Shown: piece by piece, positions 1,333 through 30,865 of the stretch
Layout: every line of letters begins with the position of its first letter
How positions within the stretch are numbered: the stretch's first letter is position 1
DNA from: a virus
IMG/VR virus record: IMGVR_UViG_3300037191_000644
Coordinates: 1-32,327 of that record
DNA length: 32,327 nucleotides
Strand: one strand, 5' to 3'
The notes under the pieces: generated by a model
Told to the model about the DNA's origin: nothing
What the model saw: the letters and a program-made list of their open reading frames with translations, nothing else
The model's database searches: none
Translations under genes and position numbers: made by a program

Positions 1333-1632
1333 TTAAGGTTTCAGATCTCCGTAATACACTTGCTTATCCTCATCCCAGGTATAATTTATACCATTACTAG
1401 AAAATGGACTACGGTCTCTTTTAGTCTTAGACTTCTTGAGTGTGCCCGGTGTTCTAGTCTTAGATCCTGAGGGGGGTAATACCTTAGGTTTAGATACTGT
1501 CTTGGGAGTTATACCTAACAATCCTGCTTTACCTGTGGCCATGTATGTAGTCAGGGCATTCTGGTATTCCTTTTCCGTTTTAAAATCTGATCTCTTAGGA
1601 GGATCTCCTTTAGTTCTTTTAGTTTTTCCCAT
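1333..1632 (-). CDS. Basic hypothetical protein, last gene of the late operon (99 aa)
   Basis: The protein begins MGKTKRTKGDPPKRSDF and is rich in Lys, Arg, Thr and Pro. A low-complexity middle (about residues 45-75) is followed by a more ordered C-terminus, INYTWDEDKQVYYGDLKP. The MGK-basic start recalls the two genes upstream, suggesting three similar basic late proteins. The ATG at 1632 lies inside the 3' end of the predicted frameshift extension of the upstream gene (14-base overlap), as expected for a compact operon. The function is unknown. A nucleic-acid-binding or virion-associated role is only an inference from charge and location. No terminator hairpin follows the stop. Confidence 0.65.
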   Translation of the reverse strand: MGKTKRTKGDPPKRSDFKTEKEYQNALTTYMATGKAGLLGITPKTVSKPKVLPPSGSKTRTPGTLKKSKTKRDRSPFSSNGINYTWDEDKQVYYGDLKP

Positions 1633-1909
1633 GTCGTTTTTGATAACTTATTCTTCTTAGTTCTTTGTTAATTTTCCTCTCCGCTAATACATCGCTCCTA
1701 TTCCGTAGCTTGGCTTTTCTATATTCGGATACATTAGCTTCAGCAAATCCGCTAATATTTCGTCTCTTAGCATAATTAGTCTCAAAGGTTTCGTTCAGAC
1801 CTAGGTCATGCAGAGTTACTCCCTGTTTATTATATTTGGGATCAGCCCATTTCTCATTCCAAGGGTCTCCGTTGTTGGGAGCTTCCGAACTCGTGGTTCC
1901 CTTTTCTAC
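1619..1909 (-). CDS. Minus-1 frameshift extension of the 217-aa basic protein (96 codons, no own start)
   Basis: This frame is open for 96 codons from GTA at 1909-1907 to TAA at 1619-1621. It contains no ATG, GTG or TTG. It begins VEKGTTSSEAPNNGDPWNEK and continues with a charged, helix-like sequence ending ISYQKRHGKN, so it has the composition of coding sequence. It lies directly after the slippery heptamer GGGAAAG (1915-1909), in the -1 frame relative to the upstream gene, whose TAG stop is at 1906-1908. The expected product is a 313-residue fusion of the upstream 217 residues with this part. The alternatives are an ancestral single gene broken by an indel, or a sequencing error. The exact slippery site in the correct phase favours programmed frameshifting. 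Confidence 0.7.
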   Translation of the reverse strand, partial: VEKGTTSSEAPNNGDPWNEKWADPKYNKQGVTLHDLGLNETFETNYAKRRNISGFAEANVSEYRKAKLRNRSDVLAERKINKELRRISYQKRHGKN

Positions 1910-2559
1910 TTTCCCGCTGTATCTGCTTTAGCTTTTTTACGAGATTCGACGGTACCTTTAAATCCAACTTCTTTCGTATTGCCGTCTTCGTCTATCCTCA
2001 TGTAAGAATCCTTGCCGGCCTTAATAGCCTTCGATCTAGCCACTTGGTTGGCTCTACCTCTTACTGAAGCCTTTTCTCGCTTAGTTACCTCTTCCTTCTC
2101 TTCCTTGCTAGTTGTGGTAGTCGTAGTCGTAGGTGTAGTCTTAGTAGTGGTTACAGGCTTAGTATCTGGTTTGACGTTATTTCTAGCTTCCTTTCTAGCA
2201 TTAGATTGCTTTAATTTGTTCGCTTTATGCTCAGTAAGGATATTTTTCCTAGTATTTAAAGCCTTAATAGCGACGTCTCTCTTAGCTTTGATTCTGGCTT
2301 GTTTCCTAGTCAACCCATCATTTCTGTAAGATTCTTTTGCTTCTTTAAGCTCTCCAGACTTCCTAGAAGTTTTTATAGAACTCTTAGTAGTATTGGCTTT
2401 TAGATTGTCTATGACGGACTGGTCCTTAATAGCCGTACCTTTATTTTTTTTCCTTTTCTTTGATTTAAAGAAGTCAGAAATTTTAGAAGGAGCATTATTA
2501 CGCTTACCTCCACCTTGATTATATAATCCGGTGCTCTTATTCAGTTTCGGTTTTCCCAT
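1906..2559 (-). CDS. Lys/Arg-rich protein with Thr-rich linker, zero-frame product (217 aa)
   Basis: The protein is highly basic and low in hydrophobic residues. It has a Lys-rich head (SKKRKKNKG near residues 33-41), a long basic helical middle, a Thr-rich linker (TTTKTTPTTTTTTTS, about residues 139-153), then an acidic/basic patch and a basic tail. Charge and gene position suggest a nucleic-acid-binding or virion-associated protein, but I do not recognise a family. The ATG at 2559 follows a 42-base gap that contains a TATATTTG promoter element. The zero-frame reading ends at TAG 1906-1908 immediately after a slippery heptamer. A fraction of ribosomes probably continue into the 96-codon extension, as in phage systems that make a short and a long form from one gene. 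Confidence 0.75.
   Translation of the reverse strand: MGKPKLNKSTGLYNQGGGKRNNAPSKISDFFKSKKRKKNKGTAIKDQSVIDNLKANTTKSSIKTSRKSGELKEAKESYRNDGLTRKQARIKAKRDVAIKALNTRKNILTEHKANKLKQSNARKEARNNVKPDTKPVTTTKTTPTTTTTTTSKEEKEEVTKREKASVRGRANQVARSKAIKAGKDSYMRIDEDGNTKEVGFKGTVESRKKAKADTAGK
1909..1915 (-). promoter_or_regulatory. Programmed -1 ribosomal frameshift site GGGAAAG
   Basis: Read on the minus strand the codons are GCG GGA AAG TAG, which places G GGA AAG in the X XXY YYZ phase needed for -1 slippage one codon before the stop. The same heptamer is the known slip site of the phage lambda G/GT tail genes. The previous stop in the -1 frame is at 1928-1930, so the two frames overlap for only about 18 bases and the heptamer sits within them. 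A small possible hairpin (1879-1892, five pairs around a CGGA loop) lies about 16 bases downstream. It is weak and may not be a true stimulator. Confidence 0.75.
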
Positions 2560-2601: not shown

Positions 2602-2916
2602 TTAACTAATGCCTCCAACGTGATGCACTTCTGGTAATCTCATTCTATTACCCACATTTCCAGGGGTAACTTTCCTAGTGATCTTCTTACGGTCTCTTCT
2701 ACGTTTGGACCGAGCTTTCTTGGCTTTACTAGATGCATGATACTTTTTGTATTCATACTTATAGTCTCTCTTACCTCCTTTGTATTTACCGTTAGCAGTA
2801 GACTTTTTACGCTTGCTACCTTTCTTCCTGGACTTTTCTGACTTACCTCGGTTACTCTTGTGAGATATAAGTCGTAATCCTTTGCTCTTCTTTTTTGCTC
2901 TCTTAGACTTAGCCAT
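2602..2916 (-). CDS. Protamine-like, extremely basic protein (104 aa)
   Basis: About 41 of 104 residues are Lys or Arg, in runs such as RAKKKSKG, KKGSKRKK and KARSKRRRDRKK. Only the C-terminal tail (NRMRLPEVHHVGGIS) looks non-repetitive. This composition is typical of DNA- or RNA-binding, protamine- or H1-tail-like proteins. In a late phage operon it could neutralise packaged DNA or coat nucleic acid, but this is inference. The start is placed at ATG 2914-2916, one base after the stop of the 3158-aa gene. A longer reading from 3036 would lie inside that gene and its extra N-terminus looks non-coding. No signal peptide or membrane segment is seen. Confidence 0.7.
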   Translation of the reverse strand: MAKSKRAKKKSKGLRLISHKSNRGKSEKSRKKGSKRKKSTANGKYKGGKRDYKYEYKKYHASSKAKKARSKRRRDRKKITRKVTPGNVGNRMRLPEVHHVGGIS

Positions 2917-2917
2917 A

Positions 2918-5900
2918 TTATCTCTTGTTGTTGTTATTCTTATTGGACTCCATCTTATTGTATAGTCCTTTCTTATCAGCTGCTTTATCGTAGTGGTATG
3001 GTTCAGTATGTAATAAATTATACAATCCTTCCCCAAACTTTTTCATCCCAGGATATGGTACTCCTCTAGATGTTGAAGCCGCTCCTATCTTGTCCGCCAC
3101 ATTCAATAACTGAGACCCTTCATCAAAGGCCATAATGGATTCGATTAGTTCTTCCATAGTTACTTCTTCCTGCATGACTTCTCCGACTAAATCGAATATA
3201 GAACCAGAAGCACTTAATATAGCCGTTCCAGCGGATTCTACAGGAGACAAATTATATTTATATTCTTTGTCTTCTACAGCATAGTTCATCGCATAATTAA
3301 ATATGTCACCTACTACGAATGCTCCGTTAAGCGGGCCCACAATACCAGCTCTGATTTGAGCTAGCCAAGCATCTCCGACTCCTTCTCCCCCAGATAATAT
3401 GTTACCTATTGAAGCTTCCTTACTGTCCCATTTTAGTTTAGCATCTATGAACTCATCATCCTCTCCCATGACATATTTGTCTCTGGCTAACACAAATCCT
3501 GTAGATACTCCCTGGAATAACTGAGGAAGTAGGAAATGATATATCATCAGTTGCTTCATATTTTCGCGCGGATTACCTCTAGACGCACTCAAATTCCTCA
3601 TTGCCGAAGCACTATGTCTGTAGTATGACATCGGTGAAGTCTTGTACATGGTCATAAGGTTTGCCATAGGATTCCTCATCGCATTAGTCTTATCAGCCTC
3701 ACTAGAAGCTTGCTGAGCTAAACGAGTGGTAGACATGAAAGCTCTTTCTGCTTCTTTCTTAGCAGCTTCAGGTTCCATACCCTCGGCTAATGACTTCTTA
3801 AGAGTATACTGATATACTGGCCAGCCTCCTACAATAATAGCAGTTTTATCACCTGCAATTACTGGACTCATTAGCATACTAACTAAGGCTTTTCCTACGG
3901 CTCCTTTATGAGAAGGTATATTATCGTATTCAGCAGACATTATTTGTCTAACAGCATCATCGAATTCCAATCTATGGTACCTCTGTTTCATTACAGGTAG
4001 CTCCGATAGAGTAGACCAGGCCTCTTTTAGATTAGCAAAGTTTTCCTGACCTTCAGTGCCCGGACTTAATAGAGCCATAACACCACTTCGCCATTCTCCC
4101 GAAGGCATATCAGCAGAGTAAGCTACAAGAGAGGTTAGTTGTTTAAATGCTAGGGAAGGTTTAGCTGCAAGTGTACCTACTACCCAATCCTTTCTTCTAT
4201 TCTGTAACCATCTCAGTCCGCTAGACCTACTTTTTTCTTTCCCCATTATATGCATGAGGTGATTATTCAACCTAGCATGAGTACCTTTACCGAAATCTTC
4301 GCCTATCTTTTTCTTTATCTCAGCATTATTAAACATATCGTTAAGTTGATTAGCTGGATCCTGGAAAGCCTTAAAGAATTCCATGGACTGCACAAATCTA
4401 GACAACATCTCGTTTATATCCTGTTTAGCTATCTCTTGCTTGTTATTAGACTTCTTCTTAAAGTGAGACGAACTGATTTGGCTAGAGACCCTATCGCCTG
4501 ACATTAGATCTAATACGAAATCTGTAGCTTCTGCGTCCATCTCTTTCAAGGTAGGAGAATAATTAGCCCTAACAGGTAAAGGGAAACCATATATCTCGGT
4601 AAACACTGAGTTTAGATTTTTATGACCTTCGTAGAGCTCACCGTTCGCATACTGAGGGAAGAAATCAGATACTAAATAGTCTGCCCATTGTTTTAGCTCA
4701 GGTCCCATTTGGTCTAGGATAGCTTTACCTTTGTTTGTTAAGATTAGACTTCCCGCTCTGTCTGCTTCGTAAGCCTTTTTAGCTTCACCCATAATGAGCT
4801 TTTCTCCTTTGTCGAGCATATCTTTAGCAGCTTGCAAATCTACAGAGTGTGTAGCCATTAATTTCTCATAATCGTCTTTTGCTTTTTTAATTACACGTTC
4901 ACGGTCCTTCTTAAAGGCGGCCTTTTCATCGGCAAACTTTATGTTAGGCAGACTCGTCATCGATAAGTAAGTCATCATCTTACTCTTCTTGCCGTATTTA
5001 CCTACGTTAGCTTTATTATACTCCCATGTTTCGTTCTCACGGTCCGTTATATGGTCTAAAGCGGTCTTTTGTTCTATCTCTATAGTCCTCTTCCCCGTTT
5101 TTATAGCCTTATTAATCGTAGCTACTTTGTTATCGTAACCTTTATTTATAGCTGTTTGAGCTTGCTCCACTGTTCTAACTCTCAGTCCTGCGAAGTCTTT
5201 ACCTAATAATTTGATTTCAGTTTCCAGATATTCTTGAGAACTAAGGAAAGATCCAAAGTCTTTAAAACGTTCTTTTATACTGAATTCCTTCTTTAGGATG
5301 CCCATTTTAGATAAGGCAGCTTCGTTAGTAGTATCTAAATACTTTATATATAGGTTAGCTATCTCATTGGGGGTCCATACTTCGTTCTCTCCAATACCAT
5401 CCTCTGTTTTCCACTGAATAGTTTGCTCTTTCTTATATGCTTTTTGAGTTTCTCTAAGTCTATTTAGTATTCTACCTTCATTCTTAGATAATGGACCCTC
5501 TGGACTTAAAGGACTCCATTCTGTTTGCTCAACTTCACCTCCAAGGTTGTGGATTTCCCTCATCTTATGATTTAGAATATCTAATACAGTATACTTACTG
5601 GAATACTCTTGTAATTCCGCTTCCTGGACAATATCCATAACGAACTTAGATAGAGGACTACCAAAAGATTTAGAGGTTGAATGGTTTATAGATAGTTCGT
5701 CTAATAGAGACCATATATTACCTGTACCCCACTCGACTAAATCGGATACTGATGACCCAAACTTGGAATCCGAATATTCTTTATCTAAACCAAACATCCT
5801 AGATAAGAAAGCTTGTCTACCTAATCTATTACCATCACCGTTTAAGACCTCCAGCATCATAGCTTTATTACGAGCTTTCAATTTGCTTTTCTCAGTCTTC

Positions 5901-8900
5901 TTGGCTTTGAATAACTTACGTCCAAAATCTTCTATCTCGAATATAGCTTTCTTGCTAGTTTCCCAGTTGTTGTCATACTCTTCTTTACCTAAATCTACAG
6001 GTCTAAGAACCGATAACCATTGTTTTAAATGGGTTTCGTAATCAGCCCCTGGATTTTTAGCTTCAAAAGCATCTTGAGCAGGTGTAGTTAATGTTTCTCC
6101 TTCGGCAGTAGTAGTTAATGCCTTGTAGTCCAGTATCTCTATTCTGAACTGACTGTACATATCATTATACTTAATAAGAGCATCCGCATCTAGCGTTTCA
6201 TGTGCTCGCATTATATTACCCAGAGCTCTTAGCTTCTCCGCCGTGTCTGGATCGTATTGTTTACCTGAACCGTGAGGTCCACCATCCTTAGATATAAAGG
6301 TATTATTTCTAGAGAATTTATCTAAATAGGTCTTGTAATCCGCTATAGTCTTTACTCTGTCTCTACTTAGGAACAGATTACTAGAACTAGGATCAATATT
6401 AGCCACGTTAGCGGCTTCCATTAAGTTATCTGGTAGTACATTAGCTGCTCCGTTTTCGAAGTTCTCAAAGGCTGTCTTTAAGAATCCTTTAGGCTTAGCT
6501 TTATTTATTATACTATTCTTAATCTGCTTAGTTCCTCTCTCTCCAATTTCCGTACTAGTACCTTTCGATTTAGGGTCGGCTAAGTCTAACCATTTTCTAG
6601 TAGACAATGCTACAGATAGATTTGCTTCAACTTCTCCATCTAGTTTTTTGTACGTAGAAAATTTATTTAGTAGAGTTTCTATAGCTTCAAGTCTTAGTTG
6701 AGCCTCTCTAGGCGACATATCCTTAATTCTACCATCTATACTGTTTGTCAAATCGAGTAGCAGCATAGCTAGTACACCTTTATCAGTAGAGGTATTACTC
6801 TCTTTCTCTCCTATTACTCTTTTGTTAGCATCACTTATAACTTGACGAAACTTCTCTATAAGGGTTTGAGCTACATCTATATCAGGCTCTATCCCTTCGA
6901 ATAGTTTAGCATATAAAAGTTGACCTTCGAACTTAGCAGCTTTTTCAAATATTTTATAAGCTGAAGTCTTTAAAGCTTTGTTATCACTTTTTAGTTCTGC
7001 CAGGTAGTCTTGGTATCTAACGAAGTCGGACCACAATTCTTTGTCAGCCTTTTCTTCGAAATTCATTCTATGGGTAGTTACATCAAAGTTTTTAAACTTA
7101 TTGTGCAAATCTACCATAGACCTAGGGGTTCCTCGGTGAACTCTACTATCTATAGTACGCTCTCCCTCAAACTTATCCCCTACCATTCTATCCGTCATGC
7201 CTCTTTTATCGAAGCTTTCCCACAATTGCTCTGCTCCTCTGGATAGGGTGTTACCATCTACTAGTCGCTCACCTTGTGCCCCTAAAGATTTAGCAACGGA
7301 TTCGTATAGTATTTTGCCAACTCCTAGTCTTTGTCTAAGCTCAGGCGTTACATAACTAAATACTACATACCTATGAGAATCTTTCATTCCCTCAGATGTA
7401 GTTAAAAAGGCTACTACAGTACTAACTGTTTCTCCTAGTTCTCCTTCCGTATCCATGTAAAGAGCAAAACCATCAAATTCTCCAGACTCTGTTCTAGTGA
7501 ATTTTAGATTTGAAACAATGTCATTAACATCTAAATCGGCTAATGGAGATTCTTCAAACGACATACTCTCTCCTTCAGCGTAGTTGCCTTCTACTACATC
7601 GACTAACTTACCTTCTATAGCAGTCTCAGGCAATGAGTTTTCGGTAGAAGTAAACTCCTCTAAAGCATTCTTAGCATTTATATTCTTATTAGCCATTTCC
7701 TTTTCTAGGATTTTGACTCTCTCAACTGTATTATTATCTACGTACAAAGAAGCAAAGTGTCGGTTAGTTCGTAGGTTACCACCTGTCCCCCAGCCTACTC
7801 CAGTCTCTTTGTTACCTATTACATGTTGAATTTCATGTACGATTATATTTTCGAATCCAGTCGAACTAGGTGCCTCAATCAAATCTGAGTCTAACAGACC
7901 TGCATAAGGACTATCGCGTTCTTTATTACCTTTTCCTAATAAGTCCATGGCTTCTCTAGGCGATCTATCGAACGCTTTAGAAAAGTCAGAAAGTAACTCA
8001 ATGGGTACTTCTACAATTAATCCTTCGCCTACAGCTGCTCCCTGAGCGGTCTTACCAAACTTTATGGTAACCTTAGCCTTATTTAACGCTGGATAATATA
8101 ACGAGAACGGACCTTCCATTATTTCAGATAGATCACAAGATATAGAATATCCTTCTACTCCCTTTCCTGCTATATAGTCTTTAGCTATACTGTTAATACT
8201 TGTAGCTAAACTTGTAAGATTCTCTGAGTTAAGCATAGCTGGCCCAGCAAAGTCCATCAATAGTCCATTGCGATTTTCGAATACACCAGTCTTAGCGAAG
8301 ATTTCCTTAGGCGATCTACCATCATCTCTTAATTTCCTAGCATACATCATGTTATCCAGCTTCTCAGTTTCTTGTTCTGTCAGCTTGTCTTTCTTAGACA
8401 GGATCTCAATTATCTTATGCTCACTTATTAAGTTAAAATGATTTTCGCTAGAGTTAGCCTCGTAATGTTCCAGGCCAATAGATTCATCAAAATTAAGTCT
8501 AACGTTATTACGTATAGCTCTAGTCAACTTAGCAGATATCACAGAAGCGTCGGATAAATCCTCCAGCTTAAGCGTACGCATATCCATCCCATTATGTTGC
8601 AACCAATCTAACGCAGGATTCTTAAACATCTTTTCGAACGCTACCGATAAAGGTCTAGTGATTCTCTTGTCTACCCTAGTGGATAAAGCTTTTTTGTTTA
8701 CATCTTGAGCTAACCATTCAGCAAGCGTTTCATTAAGGACTGTTCGCTCTATTTCTTTTGCTTGAGTAGGCGTTAGATCTCTACTCGAGTTACCGTATTG
8801 TTTCCTAGCCCACTTCAGTTTTTGTCTGAACTTAGGGTCGGACTGTGCTTGTTTCTCTAGCTTCGCATATTGTTCTGGATGCATCTTTTCGATAGAAGAC

Positions 8901-11900
8901 AATAACGGGTGCATAAGTTCATGAACCATTACCGCTCCTAGTGAAGCCTTGGTTATGTTACTTCCTGCCGTTAAGTCCAAGTGTATTGTACCCTTTGAGC
9001 CCATAACAACAGGATTCTTAGAAGCATTGAAGGCAAATTCGTTAGCCTTGGCTATCGCTACCATATATTCCTCAGCCGTAATTTCGCCAGTATTAAACTT
9101 CACTATCGCCTCTTGCCTCATCTCAGAGGTTCTTTGTATGATAACTCGGTTAAGAGTTCCGGGGGTGCTATGCAAGGCTATTCTATTACTAATGCTCTCA
9201 GGTAATATGTTTATTAACCTCTTAGCCATTTTCAAACCTTTGATGAGCTTAGAGTTATTAGCCCCATCCGCTTTAGCTTGTTCTGCTAGTTTTAATTGTT
9301 CCCCTATGTTCGTAGAGCCTTCAATTAGATTCAGAGTCTCACCTGTAAAGTTTCCTTTATCAGCAGCAGATCTCTTACCGCTAGCACTAACTTCAACCTC
9401 GTGATTGAATAGCTTCTCTCCAACTTTCACATCGGCAGCTCTTAAACTTTCTACCTCATGCTTAGCTAAAGTCTTCCATTTACCTTCAGCGTTGTATCGA
9501 CCGAAGTGTTGTTTTATTTCTTTACCTTCCTTATTAGCTGTTACTCTATGGTGTATCCCATTAGCAAAAATCGTCTCTCTAATTATAGGACGCTTTCTAT
9601 TCTTCAAGTATCTAGCGTGCTCTAATTCTGCAAGTCCCTGTTCTTTTAATAGGACTTCTAAAAATTCCTTTGCACCAAGATTTTCGTTCTCTACTTTATT
9701 AAGCAGATCAGATACTGATACAGGCTTACCTCCATGCAATTGGGCTGAAATAAGATTGTACTCTTTCATAAAAGCGGACAGCTTCTTTTGCCAAGCTAAG
9801 CCTTTATTATTAACGGTGCTAAGCATATTGACAAGTAAGGAATGTCTCGCACTCGTTACTACACCCAGAGTAGATTCACCATCTGGATTATCGAAAGCTT
9901 CTTTATCTATTATTACTCTATTCCAAACGTTATTTTCTGTAGTCAGTTCGAACTTGTGTAATCGTACTAGTCTTTCAGTTAATGCTTTTGCTATTGGATT
10001 ATTAATCTCATAAGGAGGAGCTTTAAAATGATTTATAGCTTCTATAAGTTCTGATTTTCTATGAGTGAAATCTAGAGTCCATTGATCCTTCATCATTTGT
10101 GCACCTGAAATACCATACTCCCCTGTTTTAGGATCGTATGTTTTCCTTCTCTTAAGTATATTACCTATACTATGAGGGTTATAAGATTGAGACACTCCTA
10201 GTAAACTGTTCATAGCTAAGTTAAATAGTACTCTTCTTCCCCAACTGTCTTCTGATCCTAAATCTGGATACAATTCATTGAATTTCTCGTTGAATGTGTC
10301 GTCATACTTAAGCATTTCCCAGGCACCTCCCATTACGCTCGCCATTTCCATAGAAGCAGTAGCAGTGGTAGCTCTACCTAGATTACCTAATACGTTGTGC
10401 TTAAACAGTTCCCCAAAAGCTGCTTTAGGTTTCCACTTACCGAGTATACTCAACGGTAGTCTGTGACCTATCCCAAATCCAAATCCATGACCAGTTTCGC
10501 CACCTACAGATCTAAAGGCTAATTCTTCAAATAGTCCTTCCATTAATATAACCTGAGCTTTTTGTGCAGTTGAGACTCCTTCTACGAATCCACCACCTAC
10601 TCCACCTACTACTCTAGCCCGGTAGAAATTACCTAGTAATCCGTTTGCAGCTATTCCCTCTACCCACTTTTTGGCTTTGGGAGCTTTCTTTAATATTTTT
10701 GCAGCATTAACGTAGGCTCCGGCTGCTTCTCCACCACCTATAAGCATAGGATTTATAATTCCTTTAGCAACGTATAGTTTTAGAACAAGAGAACTTATAT
10801 CTCCCATAAAACCTCCAACTTCTTCAGATAGAGAAATGCCTGTAGCACCTACTTCTTCTTCAGTGGCATTTATACCTAGTTCACCCATGATATCCAGGGC
10901 TGCTTGATCTTTTAGTTCGTTAGTACCAAAAATCATAGCGGCCTCTATACTTCCTATTCCTAATCCCTGGGCAAATCCTGCTCCATAATGTTGTATAGCT
11001 TCGGATTCGTTAGCTTCTCTAGACTCTAGGAAGCGGTGATTAAGTAGATAGAAGTGGTTTAAAGCATCTGCACGAATACCTGTACGATACAAAGCACTCC
11101 TTATAGCGTCGAACTCATCACTTTTACCTTTATCAACTCCCCATATAACAGGAGCTCCAGAATCGGAAGCTTCCTCTGATGATTCCATTGAGTTTTTCCA
11201 GTAGTTTTCATATTGCTCTTGCAACTGGTTCTTCAATAGATTTACTTTTAACCACTTGTTTTTAAGAGTGTGTAAAGTTTCCGGATTATCTAAGTCGTAA
11301 ATATATTGTAACTCGTTGAAAGCGGACTGAGAAGCTTCAGTTGCTTCAGTAGCCATTTCTTCTGTAACCCCTTCTAATGGAACTCCATCAGGGGCCCTAA
11401 GGAATCCTCCAAAGCCTAATGCGTTTCTTAAAGCTAGAACTTCTTCTCTTTTCTTATTGTAAGCTGCAGAATCTGTAGGGTCTAAATCCTCTAAATCACT
11501 TTGAGCTGTATACAAAGCATGTAAGTCAGGCTCTTCGGTTTGCAACTCTGTAACTACTTTTTCCTTGGTATCGTTAAACAGATTTGTGAAAGCAACATTT
11601 TTAGCTGTCAAGTCTGTAGGGTTATACCACTCTGGCTTTATTAGAATATTTTTCTCTGCCTCTTTCTGTTCTGCTATCCTGCCTTGGAATACTGCCTGGA
11701 AGGCCGTTTCTTCGGCATCCTCATTCCTTTTGTATATGATACTCTGCTTATATTCAGCTCTGTAAGCGTTTCGAAGCTCTTGTAGATCCTCTTCAGAATA
11801 TATATTACTCTTAGTAAGATATCCTTTTTCTAATAACTCAGCTTGGCGTTCGGCCGCTAATTGACGCTGTATCTCTTTATCTATATAAGAATCAAAATGC

Positions 11901-12394
11901 TCGTCTGTGCCTTTTTCGCCTTCGTGTAACCACTTTTCTATGTTAGCTTCGTTTACCTGTATATTGTCATCAGGATTTAAAGCATCAATACCTAAGAAAG
12001 TTTCCCCTTCATATGTATAGTCGTAATCTATTTCACTATAAGCATTTTTGGTGGCAGCAGCTGTCTGATTACCTGTGAGCTCTATATCTAAAGCATTAAA
12101 CACCTTAGCAGAATTCTTCTGGTTTTCCAAACGTTCTTCTACCCAACTCTTCGGAGGCTCCTCTGCTTTCTCTGCTATTGCTATAGATTGCTTATTAGCT
12201 TTGTTCTGGATTTCTCTTTCCTTGTACATCTCTATTATTGCAGCCACATCTGCAGGGTCCGCGGATACATTAAGCTTGTAGGCTTCAACCTTAGCTTTCA
12301 GTTCTTCACTCAATCCAGTAGTATCGTCTACCAACCCAGACACTACAGAATCTGGAGTAAGAGTTAAATCTTTTTCATCATCTATTACGCTCAT
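2918..12394 (-). CDS. Giant polyvalent virion protein with two zincin motifs and a GNAT-like domain (3158 aa)
   Basis: This is probably the largest ejection protein, delivered with or ahead of the DNA (inference). In order it shows: an acidic, helical N-terminus (1-460); a Gly/Ala-rich hydrophobic stretch (about 465-730) that could contact membrane; a zincin motif HELMH (1158-1162) with downstream ETLAE (1222-1226) as possible third ligand; a stretch with SPKEIFAKTG and LYYPALNKAKV leading to a second zincin motif HEIQH (1520-1524) followed by a Gly-rich loop, an arrangement known from phage large polyvalent proteins (LPD23-like, name from memory); a GNAT-type acetyl-CoA loop ELRQRLGVGK (1685-1694); long coiled-coil stretches; and a C-terminal region (about 2710-2935) with KPSLAFKQLTS and a TTRLAQQASS segment, typical of polyvalent proteins (LPD38-like). 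Neither an RNA polymerase DxDGD motif nor a convincing T7-type polymerase motif was found. It starts 10 bases after the 667-aa gene ends. Confidence 0.8.
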   Translation of the reverse strand: MSVIDDEKDLTLTPDSVVSGLVDDTTGLSEELKAKVEAYKLNVSADPADVAAIIEMYKEREIQNKANKQSIAIAEKAEEPPKSWVEERLENQKNSAKVFNALDIELTGNQTAAATKNAYSEIDYDYTYEGETFLGIDALNPDDNIQVNEANIEKWLHEGEKGTDEHFDSYIDKEIQRQLAAERQAELLEKGYLTKSNIYSEEDLQELRNAYRAEYKQSIIYKRNEDAEETAFQAVFQGRIAEQKEAEKNILIKPEWYNPTDLTAKNVAFTNLFNDTKEKVVTELQTEEPDLHALYTAQSDLEDLDPTDSAAYNKKREEVLALRNALGFGGFLRAPDGVPLEGVTEEMATEATEASQSAFNELQYIYDLDNPETLHTLKNKWLKVNLLKNQLQEQYENYWKNSMESSEEASDSGAPVIWGVDKGKSDEFDAIRSALYRTGIRADALNHFYLLNHRFLESREANESEAIQHYGAGFAQGLGIGSIEAAMIFGTNELKDQAALDIMGELGINATEEEVGATGISLSEEVGGFMGDISSLVLKLYVAKGIINPMLIGGGEAAGAYVNAAKILKKAPKAKKWVEGIAANGLLGNFYRARVVGGVGGGFVEGVSTAQKAQVILMEGLFEELAFRSVGGETGHGFGFGIGHRLPLSILGKWKPKAAFGELFKHNVLGNLGRATTATASMEMASVMGGAWEMLKYDDTFNEKFNELYPDLGSEDSWGRRVLFNLAMNSLLGVSQSYNPHSIGNILKRRKTYDPKTGEYGISGAQMMKDQWTLDFTHRKSELIEAINHFKAPPYEINNPIAKALTERLVRLHKFELTTENNVWNRVIIDKEAFDNPDGESTLGVVTSARHSLLVNMLSTVNNKGLAWQKKLSAFMKEYNLISAQLHGGKPVSVSDLLNKVENENLGAKEFLEVLLKEQGLAELEHARYLKNRKRPIIRETIFANGIHHRVTANKEGKEIKQHFGRYNAEGKWKTLAKHEVESLRAADVKVGEKLFNHEVEVSASGKRSAADKGNFTGETLNLIEGSTNIGEQLKLAEQAKADGANNSKLIKGLKMAKRLINILPESISNRIALHSTPGTLNRVIIQRTSEMRQEAIVKFNTGEITAEEYMVAIAKANEFAFNASKNPVVMGSKGTIHLDLTAGSNITKASLGAVMVHELMHPLLSSIEKMHPEQYAKLEKQAQSDPKFRQKLKWARKQYGNSSRDLTPTQAKEIERTVLNETLAEWLAQDVNKKALSTRVDKRITRPLSVAFEKMFKNPALDWLQHNGMDMRTLKLEDLSDASVISAKLTRAIRNNVRLNFDESIGLEHYEANSSENHFNLISEHKIIEILSKKDKLTEQETEKLDNMMYARKLRDDGRSPKEIFAKTGVFENRNGLLMDFAGPAMLNSENLTSLATSINSIAKDYIAGKGVEGYSISCDLSEIMEGPFSLYYPALNKAKVTIKFGKTAQGAAVGEGLIVEVPIELLSDFSKAFDRSPREAMDLLGKGNKERDSPYAGLLDSDLIEAPSSTGFENIIVHEIQHVIGNKETGVGWGTGGNLRTNRHFASLYVDNNTVERVKILEKEMANKNINAKNALEEFTSTENSLPETAIEGKLVDVVEGNYAEGESMSFEESPLADLDVNDIVSNLKFTRTESGEFDGFALYMDTEGELGETVSTVVAFLTTSEGMKDSHRYVVFSYVTPELRQRLGVGKILYESVAKSLGAQGERLVDGNTLSRGAEQLWESFDKRGMTDRMVGDKFEGERTIDSRVHRGTPRSMVDLHNKFKNFDVTTHRMNFEEKADKELWSDFVRYQDYLAELKSDNKALKTSAYKIFEKAAKFEGQLLYAKLFEGIEPDIDVAQTLIEKFRQVISDANKRVIGEKESNTSTDKGVLAMLLLDLTNSIDGRIKDMSPREAQLRLEAIETLLNKFSTYKKLDGEVEANLSVALSTRKWLDLADPKSKGTSTEIGERGTKQIKNSIINKAKPKGFLKTAFENFENGAANVLPDNLMEAANVANIDPSSSNLFLSRDRVKTIADYKTYLDKFSRNNTFISKDGGPHGSGKQYDPDTAEKLRALGNIMRAHETLDADALIKYNDMYSQFRIEILDYKALTTTAEGETLTTPAQDAFEAKNPGADYETHLKQWLSVLRPVDLGKEEYDNNWETSKKAIFEIEDFGRKLFKAKKTEKSKLKARNKAMMLEVLNGDGNRLGRQAFLSRMFGLDKEYSDSKFGSSVSDLVEWGTGNIWSLLDELSINHSTSKSFGSPLSKFVMDIVQEAELQEYSSKYTVLDILNHKMREIHNLGGEVEQTEWSPLSPEGPLSKNEGRILNRLRETQKAYKKEQTIQWKTEDGIGENEVWTPNEIANLYIKYLDTTNEAALSKMGILKKEFSIKERFKDFGSFLSSQEYLETEIKLLGKDFAGLRVRTVEQAQTAINKGYDNKVATINKAIKTGKRTIEIEQKTALDHITDRENETWEYNKANVGKYGKKSKMMTYLSMTSLPNIKFADEKAAFKKDRERVIKKAKDDYEKLMATHSVDLQAAKDMLDKGEKLIMGEAKKAYEADRAGSLILTNKGKAILDQMGPELKQWADYLVSDFFPQYANGELYEGHKNLNSVFTEIYGFPLPVRANYSPTLKEMDAEATDFVLDLMSGDRVSSQISSSHFKKKSNNKQEIAKQDINEMLSRFVQSMEFFKAFQDPANQLNDMFNNAEIKKKIGEDFGKGTHARLNNHLMHIMGKEKSRSSGLRWLQNRRKDWVVGTLAAKPSLAFKQLTSLVAYSADMPSGEWRSGVMALLSPGTEGQENFANLKEAWSTLSELPVMKQRYHRLEFDDAVRQIMSAEYDNIPSHKGAVGKALVSMLMSPVIAGDKTAIIVGGWPVYQYTLKKSLAEGMEPEAAKKEAERAFMSTTRLAQQASSEADKTNAMRNPMANLMTMYKTSPMSYYRHSASAMRNLSASRGNPRENMKQLMIYHFLLPQLFQGVSTGFVLARDKYVMGEDDEFIDAKLKWDSKEASIGNILSGGEGVGDAWLAQIRAGIVGPLNGAFVVGDIFNYAMNYAVEDKEYKYNLSPVESAGTAILSASGSIFDLVGEVMQEEVTMEELIESIMAFDEGSQLLNVADKIGAASTSRGVPYPGMKKFGEGLYNLLHTEPYHYDKAADKKGLYNKMESNKNNNNKR

Positions 12395-23066: not shown

Positions 23067-24500
23067 TTAGATAGAAGAAATCATGAAACGATTAGCTCCA
23101 AATACTTGAAGACCACGCTCTGTTCTGTAGTGACAGTTTAAAGCATCTTCAGTTGAATTTGGATTCTGTAAAACCGCTGAACCTGTTAACCAGTGCTCCA
23201 TCTTACGAGAATAACCATTAGCTTCTCTAAAGCGAACAGCTAAAGCCGGTAAGTTTGTTCCTGATTTAGGGTCTTTACTTACTCCTGCAGGTACAAATAA
23301 AGCTTTGTTACGGTAACCTAAAGATCCACCCATTCCTCTGTCGTTAAACAAATCATAGTTTTTCTTATGGAAAGTATAACCAGCACGAGTGAATGAATTA
23401 AAACCTAAGTTTAAAGCCATATCCTTACTGTTATTAAATGCTCCCCAGTTCTGAGCTCCAGAAATAGCAGCTGCATTGTTCTTAGAAGCCATCCAGTCAT
23501 CGATAGCCATGTTGTAACTAAGACCACACCATGCAGTGTATTCTTTAGCTCCACGTTGCTTATCGAATGCATCGATCCAAGCATCAACTGTAGTATCGTT
23601 GATTTCACCAGCAGTAGCACCAGAAGCTAAATCTTCAATACCGTCGTTAAGGATAGAAGGTAATAAACCAGCATATCCAGTAAGACTTGAATCTGCGTCA
23701 GAAGGATCAGCTAAACCAGTAGCTTCTTCCATAAACATCATCTGAGCTTCCATATAATCAGCGAAACGTTGACGTGTGTCATTTTCACCTTTTAAATACC
23801 ATACGTAACCAGATTTGCCTGTAGCTGGGTTATTTACTTTTACATAAGTAACTTGAGTAGCATCAGATCCTGAAACTGCATACGATTCTTTAAAGATCGC
23901 TGTACGTCCATAAACCTTGTCTACTAACGGTTCAACTCCAGTAGGTTGTTTAGTACCTTTACCGAATTCTAAACCAATTACTACAAACTTAGCAGCGTTG
24001 TATTTAGCCGCATCTGTAGCCTGAGCAAATACACCAGAATAAGGAGCAACTGTAATAGTTGTGTTATCCGCAGCCTTAGCTGTAATAATACAAAGTTCTC
24101 CAGCTAAATCAGCCTCTTGGAACTTGATAACTGCATTCACACGCAGTTGTTTACCTAGAGCAGCTGTAATCGCTAGTGTTCTAGTAGCATCATCAATAGC
24201 TATAGTACCAGTCGCGTTATCATCAGCAGCAGGAAGAACAAACTCTTCGTGTAACATACGCTCTTCAAAGTGCATGAACTCGTCAGAGCCTACAGCTTTC
24301 TCAGCTCCGATAGCTTGCAAGTAGCCTTGAAGACCTTGCATTCCGTATCGCTTAATTAATGTTTCGTCAATCTCGTGCTTTTGTAAGCCGATTGAACTGA
24401 TAGTTGAAGCATCAACATAGTTACCTTTTGTTGCAACTGGTTGTGAAGAAGGTTCGAAACCTGCCATCTTCATGTTATTTAATCCGTCAATTTGTGCCAT
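23067..24500 (-). CDS. Major capsid protein, HK97-fold (477 aa)
   Basis: This protein would form the icosahedral shell. It has an N-terminal arm, then LIKRYGMQGLQGYLQAIGAE and FMHFEERMLHEEF (about residues 48-85), a pattern found in many Bacteroidota phage capsid proteins. A strand-rich domain with repeated Ala/Thr segments (about 90-180) may be an inserted domain. A long helical region with FADYMEAQMMFMEEATG follows, then the C-terminal part with GYTFHKKNYDLFND. The length suits crAss-like capsids. The gene follows an acidic scaffold-like gene by 17 bases and ends at a strong terminator, as expected for the most abundant virion protein. No capsid protease gene was found nearby. The HK97-fold is inferred from context and pattern, not from a structural comparison. 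Confidence 0.8.
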   Translation of the reverse strand: MAQIDGLNNMKMAGFEPSSQPVATKGNYVDASTISSIGLQKHEIDETLIKRYGMQGLQGYLQAIGAEKAVGSDEFMHFEERMLHEEFVLPAADDNATGTIAIDDATRTLAITAALGKQLRVNAVIKFQEADLAGELCIITAKAADNTTITVAPYSGVFAQATDAAKYNAAKFVVIGLEFGKGTKQPTGVEPLVDKVYGRTAIFKESYAVSGSDATQVTYVKVNNPATGKSGYVWYLKGENDTRQRFADYMEAQMMFMEEATGLADPSDADSSLTGYAGLLPSILNDGIEDLASGATAGEINDTTVDAWIDAFDKQRGAKEYTAWCGLSYNMAIDDWMASKNNAAAISGAQNWGAFNNSKDMALNLGFNSFTRAGYTFHKKNYDLFNDRGMGGSLGYRNKALFVPAGVSKDPKSGTNLPALAVRFREANGYSRKMEHWLTGSAVLQNPNSTEDALNCHYRTERGLQVFGANRFMISSI

Positions 24501-25621: not shown

Positions 25622-26254
25622 TTAAGGATTAGGAACATTTACCGCTGTGATTTTGTTTATATTATAAAAAAGATCGGCTAGTGCTCCGCTGTTGGCTTCT
25701 ATTAGAGCCGTATGTAACTCAGCTTCTAATGTGTCTAGATCAGTTATTTCAGTAAACATATCTACTGTAGTAGCGATGCTGTCTATCCCTGTATCTATCC
25801 CAACTATATCTACTGTACCTAATGTAAACTTAATGTACCCATTGTCATAATACAATCTGACTTGTTCTGAAAGACCTACTATAGATCTTTCAACTCTATC
25901 AATTCTGGAGTAAGGTATAGACATCGAAGATCCCTCAATTTGGACCTGTTCAATCGTAGATGATATATCAGCGGGTACCGTAGAGGATATAGTGGGTATA
26001 TCCGATGATCCTGAAAGTCGTTGTAATCTAAACTCTAAAGCTGTATCGGTTGCATTAGTACCTATTAATATATTGTTACTTCCACATGAAAGATACAGGT
26101 AGTCTACTATACCATCTACATCCTTAGTAACAGAGTCTATAAGTATATCTGAACCGTCGAAATTTATATTAAGTTCGCCTGTCACTGAAGCGGCTAAAGT
26201 ATATTTAACTATTTCCGGTGTAGGTGCAATATTACGTATACGTATAAGTCCCAT
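25622..26254 (-). CDS. Beta-rich hypothetical protein between portal and scaffold (210 aa)
   Basis: The sequence is rich in Ile, Val, Ser, Thr and Asp with alternating hydrophobic residues, suggesting a mostly beta fold. Examples are GELNINFDGSDILIDSVTKD and VRLYYDNGYIKFTLGTVDIV. A short helix closes the C-terminus (LEAELHTALIEANSGALADL). There is no signal peptide, membrane segment or enzymatic motif. Its ATG shares a base with the portal stop (TAATG), so it is translated with the portal. In this position crAss-like phages carry head-surface or accessory virion proteins, so a decoration or fibre-base role is possible but unproven. Confidence 0.6.
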   Translation of the reverse strand: MGLIRIRNIAPTPEIVKYTLAASVTGELNINFDGSDILIDSVTKDVDGIVDYLYLSCGSNNILIGTNATDTALEFRLQRLSGSSDIPTISSTVPADISSTIEQVQIEGSSMSIPYSRIDRVERSIVGLSEQVRLYYDNGYIKFTLGTVDIVGIDTGIDSIATTVDMFTEITDLDTLEAELHTALIEANSGALADLFYNINKITAVNVPNP

Positions 26255-28791
26255 TATATAAGAGTATCTAGTGGAGGCCCAGATTGTTCAGGTTGTCCAG
26301 GTTGTCCAGGCTGTCCCGGTTGTTTTGGTTGCTCGTTAGGACTTGCTAATCCTTGCATCATATCCATAGGCATCTCTTCTGTTAATCCCGATAACGGATC
26401 CGGAGATAATGGTTGTCCACCCATTGGTGAATCCATACCAGGTAAAGCGATTCCATCGGTAGGAGGTGAATTAGGCATCAAGTCTTTTTTACCCGCATTA
26501 GCAGTCTCTTGTACCTTATTACTACCCTCTACTTTGATTTGCTCTTTGTCTGTTAAGCCTGAATTCTCAAGAGTCTTAAGTTCCATCTTCAACTTATATT
26601 CCAACTCTAAGCGCTCCATTTCGTGTTCGTGCTTAAGATTTTCCAATTCAGCGCTGGCTTTAGAATCAAGTTCTTTACTCTGAGCTATAGCTTGTTGCTG
26701 AGCCGCGGCCTTCTGTTGTTCTAATTGCTGAGCTCCCTGCATCTTCTGCTGCTCCGCTGCTTGAGCTTCCTTTAGATACTTACCTCTTCTTATTACTAAG
26801 GTTTGGTTAGCCATCTTAACATTCTTTATAGATCTAAGGAATATAGCATCCTCCAGTCTAAGTTCTTTCTGCTGAAGAGACATTTGTATATTCTGTTCGA
26901 ACATCTGGCGTTCTTCCTCATCTGGAGCCATTTCTATATCTAGTCCAAATTCATTCAAATGAAAGTCTTTACCTATAGATATACTTTCGACTACTGCTTC
27001 GCCTAACATATTAATGTATTTCTTCTTCAACGGGGAATACTTTATAAGATCTTGTAATCTTAGTATAGTATGTTCAGCAATCCTTCGTGTTATACTTAGC
27101 TCTCCTTTATTAATATGCTTAGTAGCATTATTAGAAGCCATTAAAGCTAGTTTCTGTGTACCGATCAAAGCTTTGTTAGAAGGCTGTGTAGCATCTCTAG
27201 CTTCGTTTATACCGGTTACATCTCTTATTACTTGTAAATTGTGATTGTATATAGCTATTAGACTTTGCATGTCTTTACCTATTCCATTTTCAAGCTCTTG
27301 AATTGGTAACGATTGGGACTGCGTACCCTCATCATCTTGTCTACGGTAATATATGTTACCAGTTTGGTCATATATATCTTGTAACTCTAATGGAGTGAAA
27401 GTAGCACCATCTCCTTTACCTACGTTTTCTAGAGAGCCTAACTCGAATGCAGCCCCTTTAGGTCTAGCCTTAGCTATAACCAGTTGCATCTTTAAGTGAG
27501 CTAGTTGAATCTGATCAGCAAAAGGAATCATTCTTTCTACTAAAGATTTACCACTCGACTTATGCACATTAGGTATATATACTATATAAGGACATGGTGT
27601 ATCATCCAGTGTAGATGTCTTACGTACCATATTCTTAGCAGGACCATAACCTATTACATGTTCTGTACCTACTAAATATATACCTGTGTAGTATATAGCT
27701 GCTGGTTGCTCTACGATTTCTCTTTTGAACTTAGAGCGTTTAGGAGCCTCGTATCCATCTTTCTTTCTATAGATGTTTGAATGTCCATGCTTGTTCTCTT
27801 TCTTCTCGTAGACTACGTTATAATCACTTTTAAAGCAACCATCTAAGACCTCTATAGTAAACATATCATAATCATATTCGTCGTATCCCAGGGAAGCATT
27901 GAAGTTGCTGCCTGATCTAAAAGAAGATGGATTATTATCTCTACCTGCGTATCTTCTAGCTACCTCTTCTAGCTGAGGTTCGCTTAACTCAGAAGGACCA
28001 GCTAATCGTCTGATCTCTCCGATAGTCATACGTCTGATTTCACCCGCATGGTATAAGTCCTTGCAATCTGGAGCTTTACTGTACGAATGAATAAAGTTGG
28101 AGGGATCTACATATGTATGCTTAATACCCCTGACAGGGTCGGTGTGAGTTTTAGCCACAGCCATATTACATACAGTAAGATCCCTTATAAGTTGAGCACG
28201 AATTTCATCGTAATCATTAAGAGCTTTTATAGCTGTAAGAGCTTGTTCCATAGCCAATTCATTCTTCTGCTTGTAATTCAGATTCATGAACAGATCTAAT
28301 TCTTCGATAGATTCAGGACCACTAGCTTTTTCTTGCGTAGGCTGGTCGGTTATTCTAGCAAACTCTTCGTTGTAATCTTTGTTTATCATTTCGACAAACA
28401 TCTTATCTTTATCCTTAAGACGCTTGTTCAAAGATGTAGTATCCATAGCGGTTACCTTCATCTCGTATTCCTGTTCTACTAATCCGTTAACTATTACATC
28501 TACGAACTTTGGAACAATACTTAATATATCCCAGTTAAGGTTCATATAAGACTGGTCCCCACTAGAATTAAGCATGCTACGATACTTGCCATCTCCTTGA
28601 GTACCATTAGCATAGGCTCTGGCTGTATCAAATCTTCTCTTCTTTCCTTTGATAGAAGAAGATCCTTCTCCCTGCCAGTCTTTGTACATACCCTGGAAAT
28701 ACTTCAAGCCATAAGCCTTACTGTCTTTTATTTCCTTCTTAGCAAACGGTGACGGATACCCTCCAACGTTTTCTATATCTTTATGGCTCAT
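26254..28791 (-). CDS. Portal protein (845 aa)
   Basis: This is a large portal of the type found in crAss-like and related phages. The dodecameric portal is the DNA gate and the docking site for terminase and tail rings. The sequence shows an N-terminal region with WDILSIVPKFVDVIVNGLVE, a strand-rich wing, the stretch SLVERMIPFADQIQLAHLKM (about residues 410-435) followed by IYNHNLQVIRDVTGINEARD, which is portal-like, and a crown/barrel region. The C-terminal part (about 675-760) is a Gln/Ala/Glu-rich coiled coil (QQKAAAQQQAIAQSKELD). A Pro/Gly/Met-rich tail ends in a short PGQ repeat. It starts one base after the terminase stop. The identification rests on neighbours plus these segments and is solid. 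Confidence 0.85.
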   Translation of the reverse strand: MSHKDIENVGGYPSPFAKKEIKDSKAYGLKYFQGMYKDWQGEGSSSIKGKKRRFDTARAYANGTQGDGKYRSMLNSSGDQSYMNLNWDILSIVPKFVDVIVNGLVEQEYEMKVTAMDTTSLNKRLKDKDKMFVEMINKDYNEEFARITDQPTQEKASGPESIEELDLFMNLNYKQKNELAMEQALTAIKALNDYDEIRAQLIRDLTVCNMAVAKTHTDPVRGIKHTYVDPSNFIHSYSKAPDCKDLYHAGEIRRMTIGEIRRLAGPSELSEPQLEEVARRYAGRDNNPSSFRSGSNFNASLGYDEYDYDMFTIEVLDGCFKSDYNVVYEKKENKHGHSNIYRKKDGYEAPKRSKFKREIVEQPAAIYYTGIYLVGTEHVIGYGPAKNMVRKTSTLDDTPCPYIVYIPNVHKSSGKSLVERMIPFADQIQLAHLKMQLVIAKARPKGAAFELGSLENVGKGDGATFTPLELQDIYDQTGNIYYRRQDDEGTQSQSLPIQELENGIGKDMQSLIAIYNHNLQVIRDVTGINEARDATQPSNKALIGTQKLALMASNNATKHINKGELSITRRIAEHTILRLQDLIKYSPLKKKYINMLGEAVVESISIGKDFHLNEFGLDIEMAPDEEERQMFEQNIQMSLQQKELRLEDAIFLRSIKNVKMANQTLVIRRGKYLKEAQAAEQQKMQGAQQLEQQKAAAQQQAIAQSKELDSKASAELENLKHEHEMERLELEYKLKMELKTLENSGLTDKEQIKVEGSNKVQETANAGKKDLMPNSPPTDGIALPGMDSPMGGQPLSPDPLSGLTEEMPMDMMQGLASPNEQPKQPGQPGQPGQPEQSGPPLDTLI
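26276..26322 (-). repeat. PGQ tandem repeat in the portal tail
   Basis: Near the 3' end of the portal gene a nine-base unit (forward CCAGGTTGT with small changes) repeats in tandem and encodes PGQPGQPGQPEQSGPP, a collagen-like or flexible tail. Bounds are approximate. Confidence 0.7.
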
Positions 28792-28792
28792 A

Positions 28793-30865
28793 TTATTGAA
28801 TATTTTTTCTACTATTAAACGCTCTTACAAACGGGATATGTTCCGTTATTTCTTTTTTCTTCTTAATTACTTTTGTCGTAGCTATTAACGCTAGTGCTGC
28901 TGCTATGGACGCATCGTATTTGGTTCTATTATCAATCTCAAATACACTCCAATCCTTTAGTAACACATTAAAATGACATCTACCCATCGATCCATCTGGT
29001 CTATATCCCACATTATCATGAATGTGAGCCTCAGTTAAATCACCCATTAGGTTTATGACCTCGGCTCCTGCTGTAGGAATACCTGGGGTTACCTTCTTAC
29101 CTGGGGATGGTAGTCTACTATAAGTGTATTCCGGACGCGCCATTAAATATCCTGCAAATCCGTTGTCACGAAAGTAGTTAATTATTCCGACTTTATTATT
29201 TTCTATGAGTATCTCTGCACCATAAAATACACAAGCCTTCAATACATCCTCATAAAAGATAGAAGCTTTAGGAGGCCTGTTGATATACTCACATACAAAT
29301 ACCTGACTAACCTCTTCAAAAGGATTAAACTTCTTGAAAATATATAACGCCCCATCGGACCTACGTCCATCAACGGTATAGTCATGATCGAAGGGATCGC
29401 AGCCGCCAACATAATCCACAGCATTGCCAGGATATCGGCCCTTGCTTCGCATAACTTTCGCATTTCTTTTTTCTTCTGGAAGTAAAAACGTTGTTTTGAA
29501 TTTGCCATTTTTATTAGGAACCCACTTTACTGCTTGTTTAGTAGTCGGATCCTCCCATAAGAAATTACCTGTTACGGTTAATTCTGGGTGTTCCTCATTA
29601 TAATCCATCTGTTGAAATATCTTTTCTACATCAAAAGTGGACCTGGAAGCATCGGCTCTGAAAGCTTCTTCTTCTGTAAATGGGAACTGGCGCTTAAATT
29701 CGTTTAAATCAATATTATTGTCTGCTAATGCTTTTCTTCTGTTACTTAAGTATTCTTTAGAACCTATTTCTACTTCGAATTCATCAATACCCATTATAGG
29801 GACCTTGGGAGAAGTTATAACCGAGTATCCATATATGTCTATGAAACCCTCTAGGTTATCGAAGGCTGGTATAAATAGCGAGTATAATCCGGATATAGTC
29901 TGCCCATTCTGATCACGCTTAGTTACGTCCGATGAGTAGTAAATATCTTTGTACTCTTCACCCCCACTATCCTGAGCGTTGGCAGTAGTACCCATCATAC
30001 ACTTACCTACTATCTTTCTACCTAATAATAAACAAGTTCTAGTAACTCTCCAGTTCTTTTTAATACTATTAGGTTTCGACCATTTAGCACTTTCATCGTG
30101 TACTAATAATTTCAGTTTTTGACCATCATAAGAGTTAGAACCTGTATTTCTCCAACTTATACTAGAATTTAAAGATTCATCGATAGATGCATACTTATTG
30201 TTCTTTGTCATCTTCTGCGAAGGAGTTCTAAAAGCAAGCTCCATACGAGGATTTGAAGAACCATCTTGAATGGGCTTGAAGAACCACGGGTAGTTTCTAA
30301 AGATATAAACAGCTTTATCTGTAAACAAATCCTGTGCATCTTTACCTGTCTTCGATAATATCCCTGACACAGCATTTTCAGCACTAGACGTTATATTCAC
30401 TATCTCACTAGCCGAACAATAACTGAATCCACTCCTTCTATTCTTTAGATAGCATACTCCAAAGCACCTATGATCTAACTTGCATGCTTCCCAGAACATG
30501 AATAAGCGACGATTAGCATCCCTGTATTCAGGATAACCAATATCTATCTTACTCCACTGTACATACATGTAATGAGAACCAGTCATATAAGTAGGCTCTC
30601 CGTTGTTAAAGAACCATATACCTTCTCGTCGTCTTCTGTATTCTTCTACGATATAGTCTTCAAAGTCAGCTGCGTTTTCTCTACTACACATTACGCTCAT
30701 TTCTTGGCGTACCCAAACCTGGTCTTTTTTCTTCACTCCTACATTAAGAAAATGTGATCTAGGCGGTTGCTTAGGTAATCCGATCTTGAGATTCTGTATC
30801 TCAATAACCTTACCTCTAGTCCCATTAGGACACAACCACACTGTATCAGTTTTCTTATCGTACAT
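28793..30865 (-). CDS. terL: Large terminase subunit (690 aa)
   Basis: This is the ATP-driven motor and nuclease that packages DNA through the portal. The ATPase half has an unusual Walker A-like segment KNRRSGFS (141-148), Walker B LKLLVHDE (251-258) and a coupling segment MGTTANAQDSGGEE (about 291-304). FPFTEEEAFRA (394-404) is a familiar TerL junction sequence. The nuclease half has the three acidic positions expected of the RNase H-like fold: VGGCDPFDHD (D490), ILIENNKVG (E555) and KYDASIAAAL (D651). The ATG at 30865 overlaps the upstream gene by 11 bases. No obvious small terminase is seen, although the 101-aa coiled-coil protein just upstream is a candidate by position. Confidence 0.9.
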   Translation of the reverse strand: MYDKKTDTVWLCPNGTRGKVIEIQNLKIGLPKQPPRSHFLNVGVKKKDQVWVRQEMSVMCSRENAADFEDYIVEEYRRRREGIWFFNNGEPTYMTGSHYMYVQWSKIDIGYPEYRDANRRLFMFWEACKLDHRCFGVCYLKNRRSGFSYCSASEIVNITSSAENAVSGILSKTGKDAQDLFTDKAVYIFRNYPWFFKPIQDGSSNPRMELAFRTPSQKMTKNNKYASIDESLNSSISWRNTGSNSYDGQKLKLLVHDESAKWSKPNSIKKNWRVTRTCLLLGRKIVGKCMMGTTANAQDSGGEEYKDIYYSSDVTKRDQNGQTISGLYSLFIPAFDNLEGFIDIYGYSVITSPKVPIMGIDEFEVEIGSKEYLSNRRKALADNNIDLNEFKRQFPFTEEEAFRADASRSTFDVEKIFQQMDYNEEHPELTVTGNFLWEDPTTKQAVKWVPNKNGKFKTTFLLPEEKRNAKVMRSKGRYPGNAVDYVGGCDPFDHDYTVDGRRSDGALYIFKKFNPFEEVSQVFVCEYINRPPKASIFYEDVLKACVFYGAEILIENNKVGIINYFRDNGFAGYLMARPEYTYSRLPSPGKKVTPGIPTAGAEVINLMGDLTEAHIHDNVGYRPDGSMGRCHFNVLLKDWSVFEIDNRTKYDASIAAALALIATTKVIKKKKEITEHIPFVRAFNSRKNIQ

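Follow-up and report, generated by a model that had tools for sequence, protein, structure and literature searches.

Known frameshift extensions and the late genes of the window

Virion proteins extended through frameshifting are known from gene 10 of the phages T3 and T7 (products 10A and 10B), from the Lactobacillus phage A2 and from the Listeria phages A118, A500 and PSA (PMC5009743). In these phages, slippage near the stop codon of a late gene yields a main form and a minor form with a C-terminal extension, and mobile modules can serve as the extension (PMC5009743). Ig-like modules have also moved into phage virion genes, and some that arrived out of frame came to be expressed through frameshifting (PMC5009743), and surveys note frameshift predictions outside the tail chaperones (PMC10885494). 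Here we analysed the window, meaning the whole of a 32,327-base virus record with its late genes on the minus strand, in which a 217-aa Lys/Arg-rich late gene (27% K+R; 1906..2559, -) ends at the slippery heptamer G_GGA_AAG. The predicted arrangement resembles that of T3/T7, A2 and the Listeria phages in that a late phage gene would give both forms by slippage near its stop, and T3 and T7 are podophages. On the other hand, the described cases are major capsid or tail proteins, and their products have been measured, whereas the window offers a small Lys-rich protein known from sequence and another heptamer, and the T7 site is less regular than the G_GGA_AAG of the window. Compared with the Ig-like domains, the window would work likewise with another kind of module. 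Considering that T3/T7 gene 10, A2 and the Listeria phages already extend virion proteins in this way (PMC5009743), the initial annotation went too far in proposing a new use of frameshifting. If confirmed, the locus would represent a known kind of frameshift extension, new for its protein family and its host group.

The lambda G/GT pair has the same heptamer class, G_GGA_AAG, as the window, and its -1 shift lies close to where the upstream gene ends, as predicted here. The window phage, however, carries podovirus-type head and portal genes, and its 217-aa gene follows the last structural gene instead of preceding a tape measure gene. A lambda-type tail assembly chaperone was considered and rejected, as there is no PHROG or Pfam match to tail chaperone families and the cluster lies between the last structural gene and a convergent PhoH gene.

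The late genes of the window include those for the terminase (28793-30865, -) and the portal (26254-28791, -), a virion structural gene (23067-24500, -) and further structural genes, and they extend to a giant last structural gene of 3158 codons (2918-12394, -) with no Pfam match. Its relatives, genes of 2600-3900 codons, are only about 25% identical to it over the C-terminal third. The terminase and structural genes are 31-45% identical to those of Flavobacterium elemoviruses, Cellulophaga podophages, Maribacter phage Panino and an uncultured podovirus from Manatee Spring. This suggests that the source phage is an elemovirus-like flavobacterial podophage, with flavobacterial podophages as its terminase relatives.

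Three small basic genes (2916-2602, 2559-1906 and 1632-1333, all -) follow the giant gene, and the convergent PhoH and 75-aa genes meet them. The first, at the stop of the giant gene, is a very basic 104-aa gene (39% K+R; 2602..2916, -) that belongs to the same small-basic late cluster; its middle part is similar to small basic ORFs on contigs of other marine phages (L140:447-689 and L080:3214-3462; pattern RDYxKEYxKF). The second is the 217-aa gene. The third is a basic 99-aa gene with its own ATG and the motif NGI[NT]YTWD (1333..1632, -), whose C-terminal motif NGINYTWDEDKQVYYGDL is common to a family of basic late proteins. Based on their position, charge and neighbourhood, these basic proteins are likely located in or on the particle.

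The slippery heptamer and the overlap of the frames

The 217-aa ORF ends in D-T-A-G-K-stop, encoded by GAT ACA GCG GGA AAG TAG, which places the heptamer (1909..1915, -) in exact -1 slippage phase directly before the stop TAG (1908-1906); the window reads GGGAAAGTAG at this tract. The -1 frame is open for 102 codons (1622..1927, -), 96 of them after the heptamer, between a TAA at 1930-1928 and its stop TAA at 1621-1619, and contains no ATG, GTG or TTG. Before the TAG, frame 0 and the -1 frame overlap by 19 bases, and the heptamer lies inside this overlap in frame 0 phase. The initial annotation had described the phase of the heptamer, the start-less open frame and a short overlap, given as about 18 bases, and these descriptions were borne out by the sequence and by the codon list. 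If the reading is correct, the locus would also show how what looks like a gap of 273 bases may conceal a coding module in a phage genome.

The heptamer GGGAAAG is not enriched by count (three occurrences in the window vs 4.0 expected), and no other in-phase GGGAAAG is present among the 9956 codons of the window's genes. In-phase sites of the general form X_XXY_YYZ number 26 in these codons, which corresponds to 0.26% of codons and to 1.6% for a 6-codon overlap. In-phase heptamers are three times commoner in the lysine-rich genes of relatives (17 in about 2100 codons, or ~5% per 6 codons), and for this reason we put the weight of the heptamer by itself at a factor of no more than about 20 to 60. 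It is the joint presence of an in-phase heptamer and a long, start-less open frame that is unusual, rather than the heptamer count. Elsewhere in the 29 kb of late genes, off-frame sense stretches are at most 95 codons long, vs 102 here. Across the 2.29 Mb of viral DNA that was fetched, the extension of the window is the only start-poor coding continuation with an in-phase heptamer.

The frequency of such heptamers in Lys-rich genes also counts in favour of the main rival to frameshifting, namely that a formerly continuous 313-codon gene lost one base at the GGGAAA tract, by a real mutation or by a sequencing or assembly error, and that the slippery look is a by-product of short homopolymer runs. 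We regard this as a serious possibility, although on balance the less probable side of the question. Against it, a break at random would place an in-phase heptamer inside a 6-codon overlap only about 2-5% of the time, and the other genes of the window, some 30 kb, are unbroken. In the 2.29 Mb there was only one other convincing case, with no heptamer in its overlap, in Maribacter phage Panino of the same phage group. There, a large structural gene is split into an ORF of 946 aa and a -1 ORF of about 357 codons at AAGCTTTTTCCAAAG (L231:519-1650, corresponding to PP540027.1 36518-37650, -). The homologues of this split gene are continuous, with 1618 aa in the window and 1470 aa in the elemoviruses. 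This -1 break, at a TTTTT run and with no in-phase heptamer, looks like an indel, with frameshifting as the alternative, and such breaks therefore exist in this phage group, a point in favour of a lost base.

Coding character of the extension and its homologue

The 96 codons after the heptamer (1622..1909, -) encode a module VEKG...RHGKN, starting with VEKGTTSSEAP, which is predicted to form the C-terminal part of a 313-aa long form. The codon score of the extension frame is +0.07 vs -0.19 and -0.26 in the other two frames, and no off-frame segment of known genes reaches it; a synonymous-only score favours the same frame weakly. As is seen in translated operons, the stop of the extension overlaps with the ATG of the 99-aa gene that follows; the two coding stretches share 14 bases.

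A search of 50 related records gave a single match, between residues 49-83 of the extension and a stand-alone 117-aa ORF with its own ATG (E 4.6e-4 in that genome; L176:6807-7160), located on the 62.7-kb contig IMGVR_UViG_3300030390_001226 (hereafter G008). Pairwise, the two sequences are 32% identical over 66 aa, none of 5000 shuffles aligned with as high a score, and all fixed positions of the core YRxxKxxxRxDVLAERxI are identical between them. The 117-aa ORF stays the best match among the 17,275 ORFs of at least 40 codons in the fetched loci (E 0.006-0.007), and a looser pattern keeping the tyrosine, the arginines and DVLAER was found, over the viral contigs, in G008 only. Motif matches in bacterial genomes were dispersed over unrelated phyla, at about the number expected by chance, and were left out of the evidence. 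The 117-aa ORF is directly followed by a small basic gene with a KKKSFGVLKSD motif, which is common to the relatives of the 99-aa gene of the window. Helped by this similar gene context, the sequence comparison supports, with moderate confidence, homology between the extension and the G008 ORF.

The extension is a real coding sequence and the sole coding-like frame at this place; the initial annotation was thus right in calling its composition coding-like, as the contrast of +0.07 with about -0.2 in the other frames and the stand-alone homologue in G008 show. That the open -1 frame would instead be chance or decayed sequence that is not translated is very improbable. The frame has a lower codon score than 99% of the true in-frame segments of this phage, and a single clear homologue was found, which would fit decay; against this stand the 102 open codons with a clear frame preference and a homologue that shares both the conserved YRxxKxxxRxDVLAER and a similar gene context.

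The stand-alone G008 homologue with its own ATG raises another alternative, in which the extension would be a separate gene in the window as well, begun at a non-standard start codon or by re-initiation beside the TAG, and not fused to the 217-aa protein. CTG, ATT and ATA codons are indeed present in the extension frame. However, the earliest of them, a CTG, comes 32 codons into the extension, and the match to the G008 protein starts about 12 codons ahead of it. ATG, GTG and TTG are wholly absent, which holds for only 2% of the 96-codon in-frame segments of the window phage, so separate initiation would be hard. We consider a separate gene unlikely.

Mosaic relatives and the case for frameshifting

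An alignment-driven scan with the 99-aa module (NGINYTWDEDKQVYYGDL) showed that 11 loci carry it; the same kind of scan started from two rows only gave weak patterns and no match. The relatives of the cluster include multi-module basic late proteins on marine flavophage contigs (loci L225-L230 and G008), all with the 99-aa module and in late structural neighbourhoods. Three of them (L228, L229 and L230) also carry the 217-aa module (E 1e-9, 1e-10 and 3e-8), which comes first and is followed by the 99-aa module in one continuous frame; the N-terminus of L228 even has LNKSTGL...GGGKR, as in the 217-aa module of the window. In contrast to the window, the modules of these proteins are joined without a shift and stand in another order. 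L228 runs to 531 aa and has, near its C-terminus, a stretch similar to the core of the extension (NMSQKKKERLRKKSDKLDEKSMSK; 11 of 2000 shuffles were as good), while its similarity to the first 45 residues of the extension is not significant. A gene adjoining the basic loci of the relatives starts with MKSPKIKGIGEV and appears to run into repetitive fibre-like sequence, so that we read these neighbourhoods as structural.

Based on these comparisons, the 217-aa module, the extension motif and the 99-aa module are mosaic modules of small basic late proteins, joined in one chain or separate and varying in order. A single ancestral protein spanning all three ORFs in one frame was rejected. The 217-aa and 99-aa genes do share a reading frame, but stops interrupt it between them and the 99-aa gene starts at an ATG of its own; such an ancestor would also require two compensating indels.

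The continuous relatives are also an argument for a lost base, since they carry the 217-aa module in a frame that runs on into further modules, and the extension-like motif at the C-terminus of L228 points the same way. The initial annotation had named beforehand a continuous frame in homologues as what would refute frameshifting, and this is what the nearest relatives, L228, L229 and L230, have. Among the relatives found, all of them distant, none keeps the heptamer arrangement, with L228-L230 continuous and the G008 homologue stand-alone; searches that started from the extension, the final part of the giant gene, PhoH, the terminase or motif patterns gave no orthologous locus or close relative. 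The continuous relatives weaken the claim of frameshifting and do not settle it, because they are distant mosaics with a different module order. Of the proposal that a short and a long basic protein are fused by frameshifting, the phase, the start-less frame and the coding extension thus held up, and conservation of the heptamer found no support among these distant relatives.

Taking the evidence together, we favour -1 frameshifting onto an out-of-frame module, with one protein made in a short and a long form, over any other single explanation and give it about an even chance of being correct. The extension module (1909-1622, -), out of frame behind the 217-aa gene and with no start codon, would be reached as follows. 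Most ribosomes would end at the TAG (1908-1906) and release the 217-aa form, and a minority would slip back one base on G_GGA_AAG and translate 96 more codons into the 313-aa form. Both forms would be used, probably in or on the particle. As the TAG directly follows the heptamer, ribosomes that pause at this stop while the lysine tRNA occupies A_AAG might slip more often. Escherichia coli ribosomes are highly shift-prone on G_GGA_AAG (reviewed in PMC5009743); in a flavobacterial host, the tRNA and ribosome context may differ.

An RNA element was considered and rejected, since the RNA downstream of the heptamer, modelled without pseudoknots or a Shine-Dalgarno-like stimulator, folds no better than shuffled sequences (z between 0.2 and -1.0). 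A stimulator such as a downstream stem-loop or pseudoknot is not always required for -1 frameshifting.

More generally, mosaic basic late proteins of flavobacterial podophages may acquire out-of-frame modules by recombination and keep them through -1 frameshifting, a proposal that we put forward tentatively and hold at somewhat below even. We know of no earlier such frameshift case in these basic proteins or in this phage group. If true, frameshifting would extend beyond tail chaperones and capsids to small basic proteins that are annotated too short by gene finders, and the locus would be a natural test of slippage as a rescue of out-of-frame modules, an idea that has been stated for Ig-like domains (PMC5009743).

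Besides, no tRNA was found, and the sole Rfam match, a SAM-II riboswitch at 1918-2005 (-), was taken as chance (22 bits vs a gathering score of 44, that is half of it, with E 0.61). On the opposite strand, the PhoH-like gene (433-1332, +) is 74-87% identical to the PhoH of many otherwise unrelated marine phage contigs, about 20 of which have the same 75-aa gene after it (54-59% identity), and the two genes together look like a mobile cassette.
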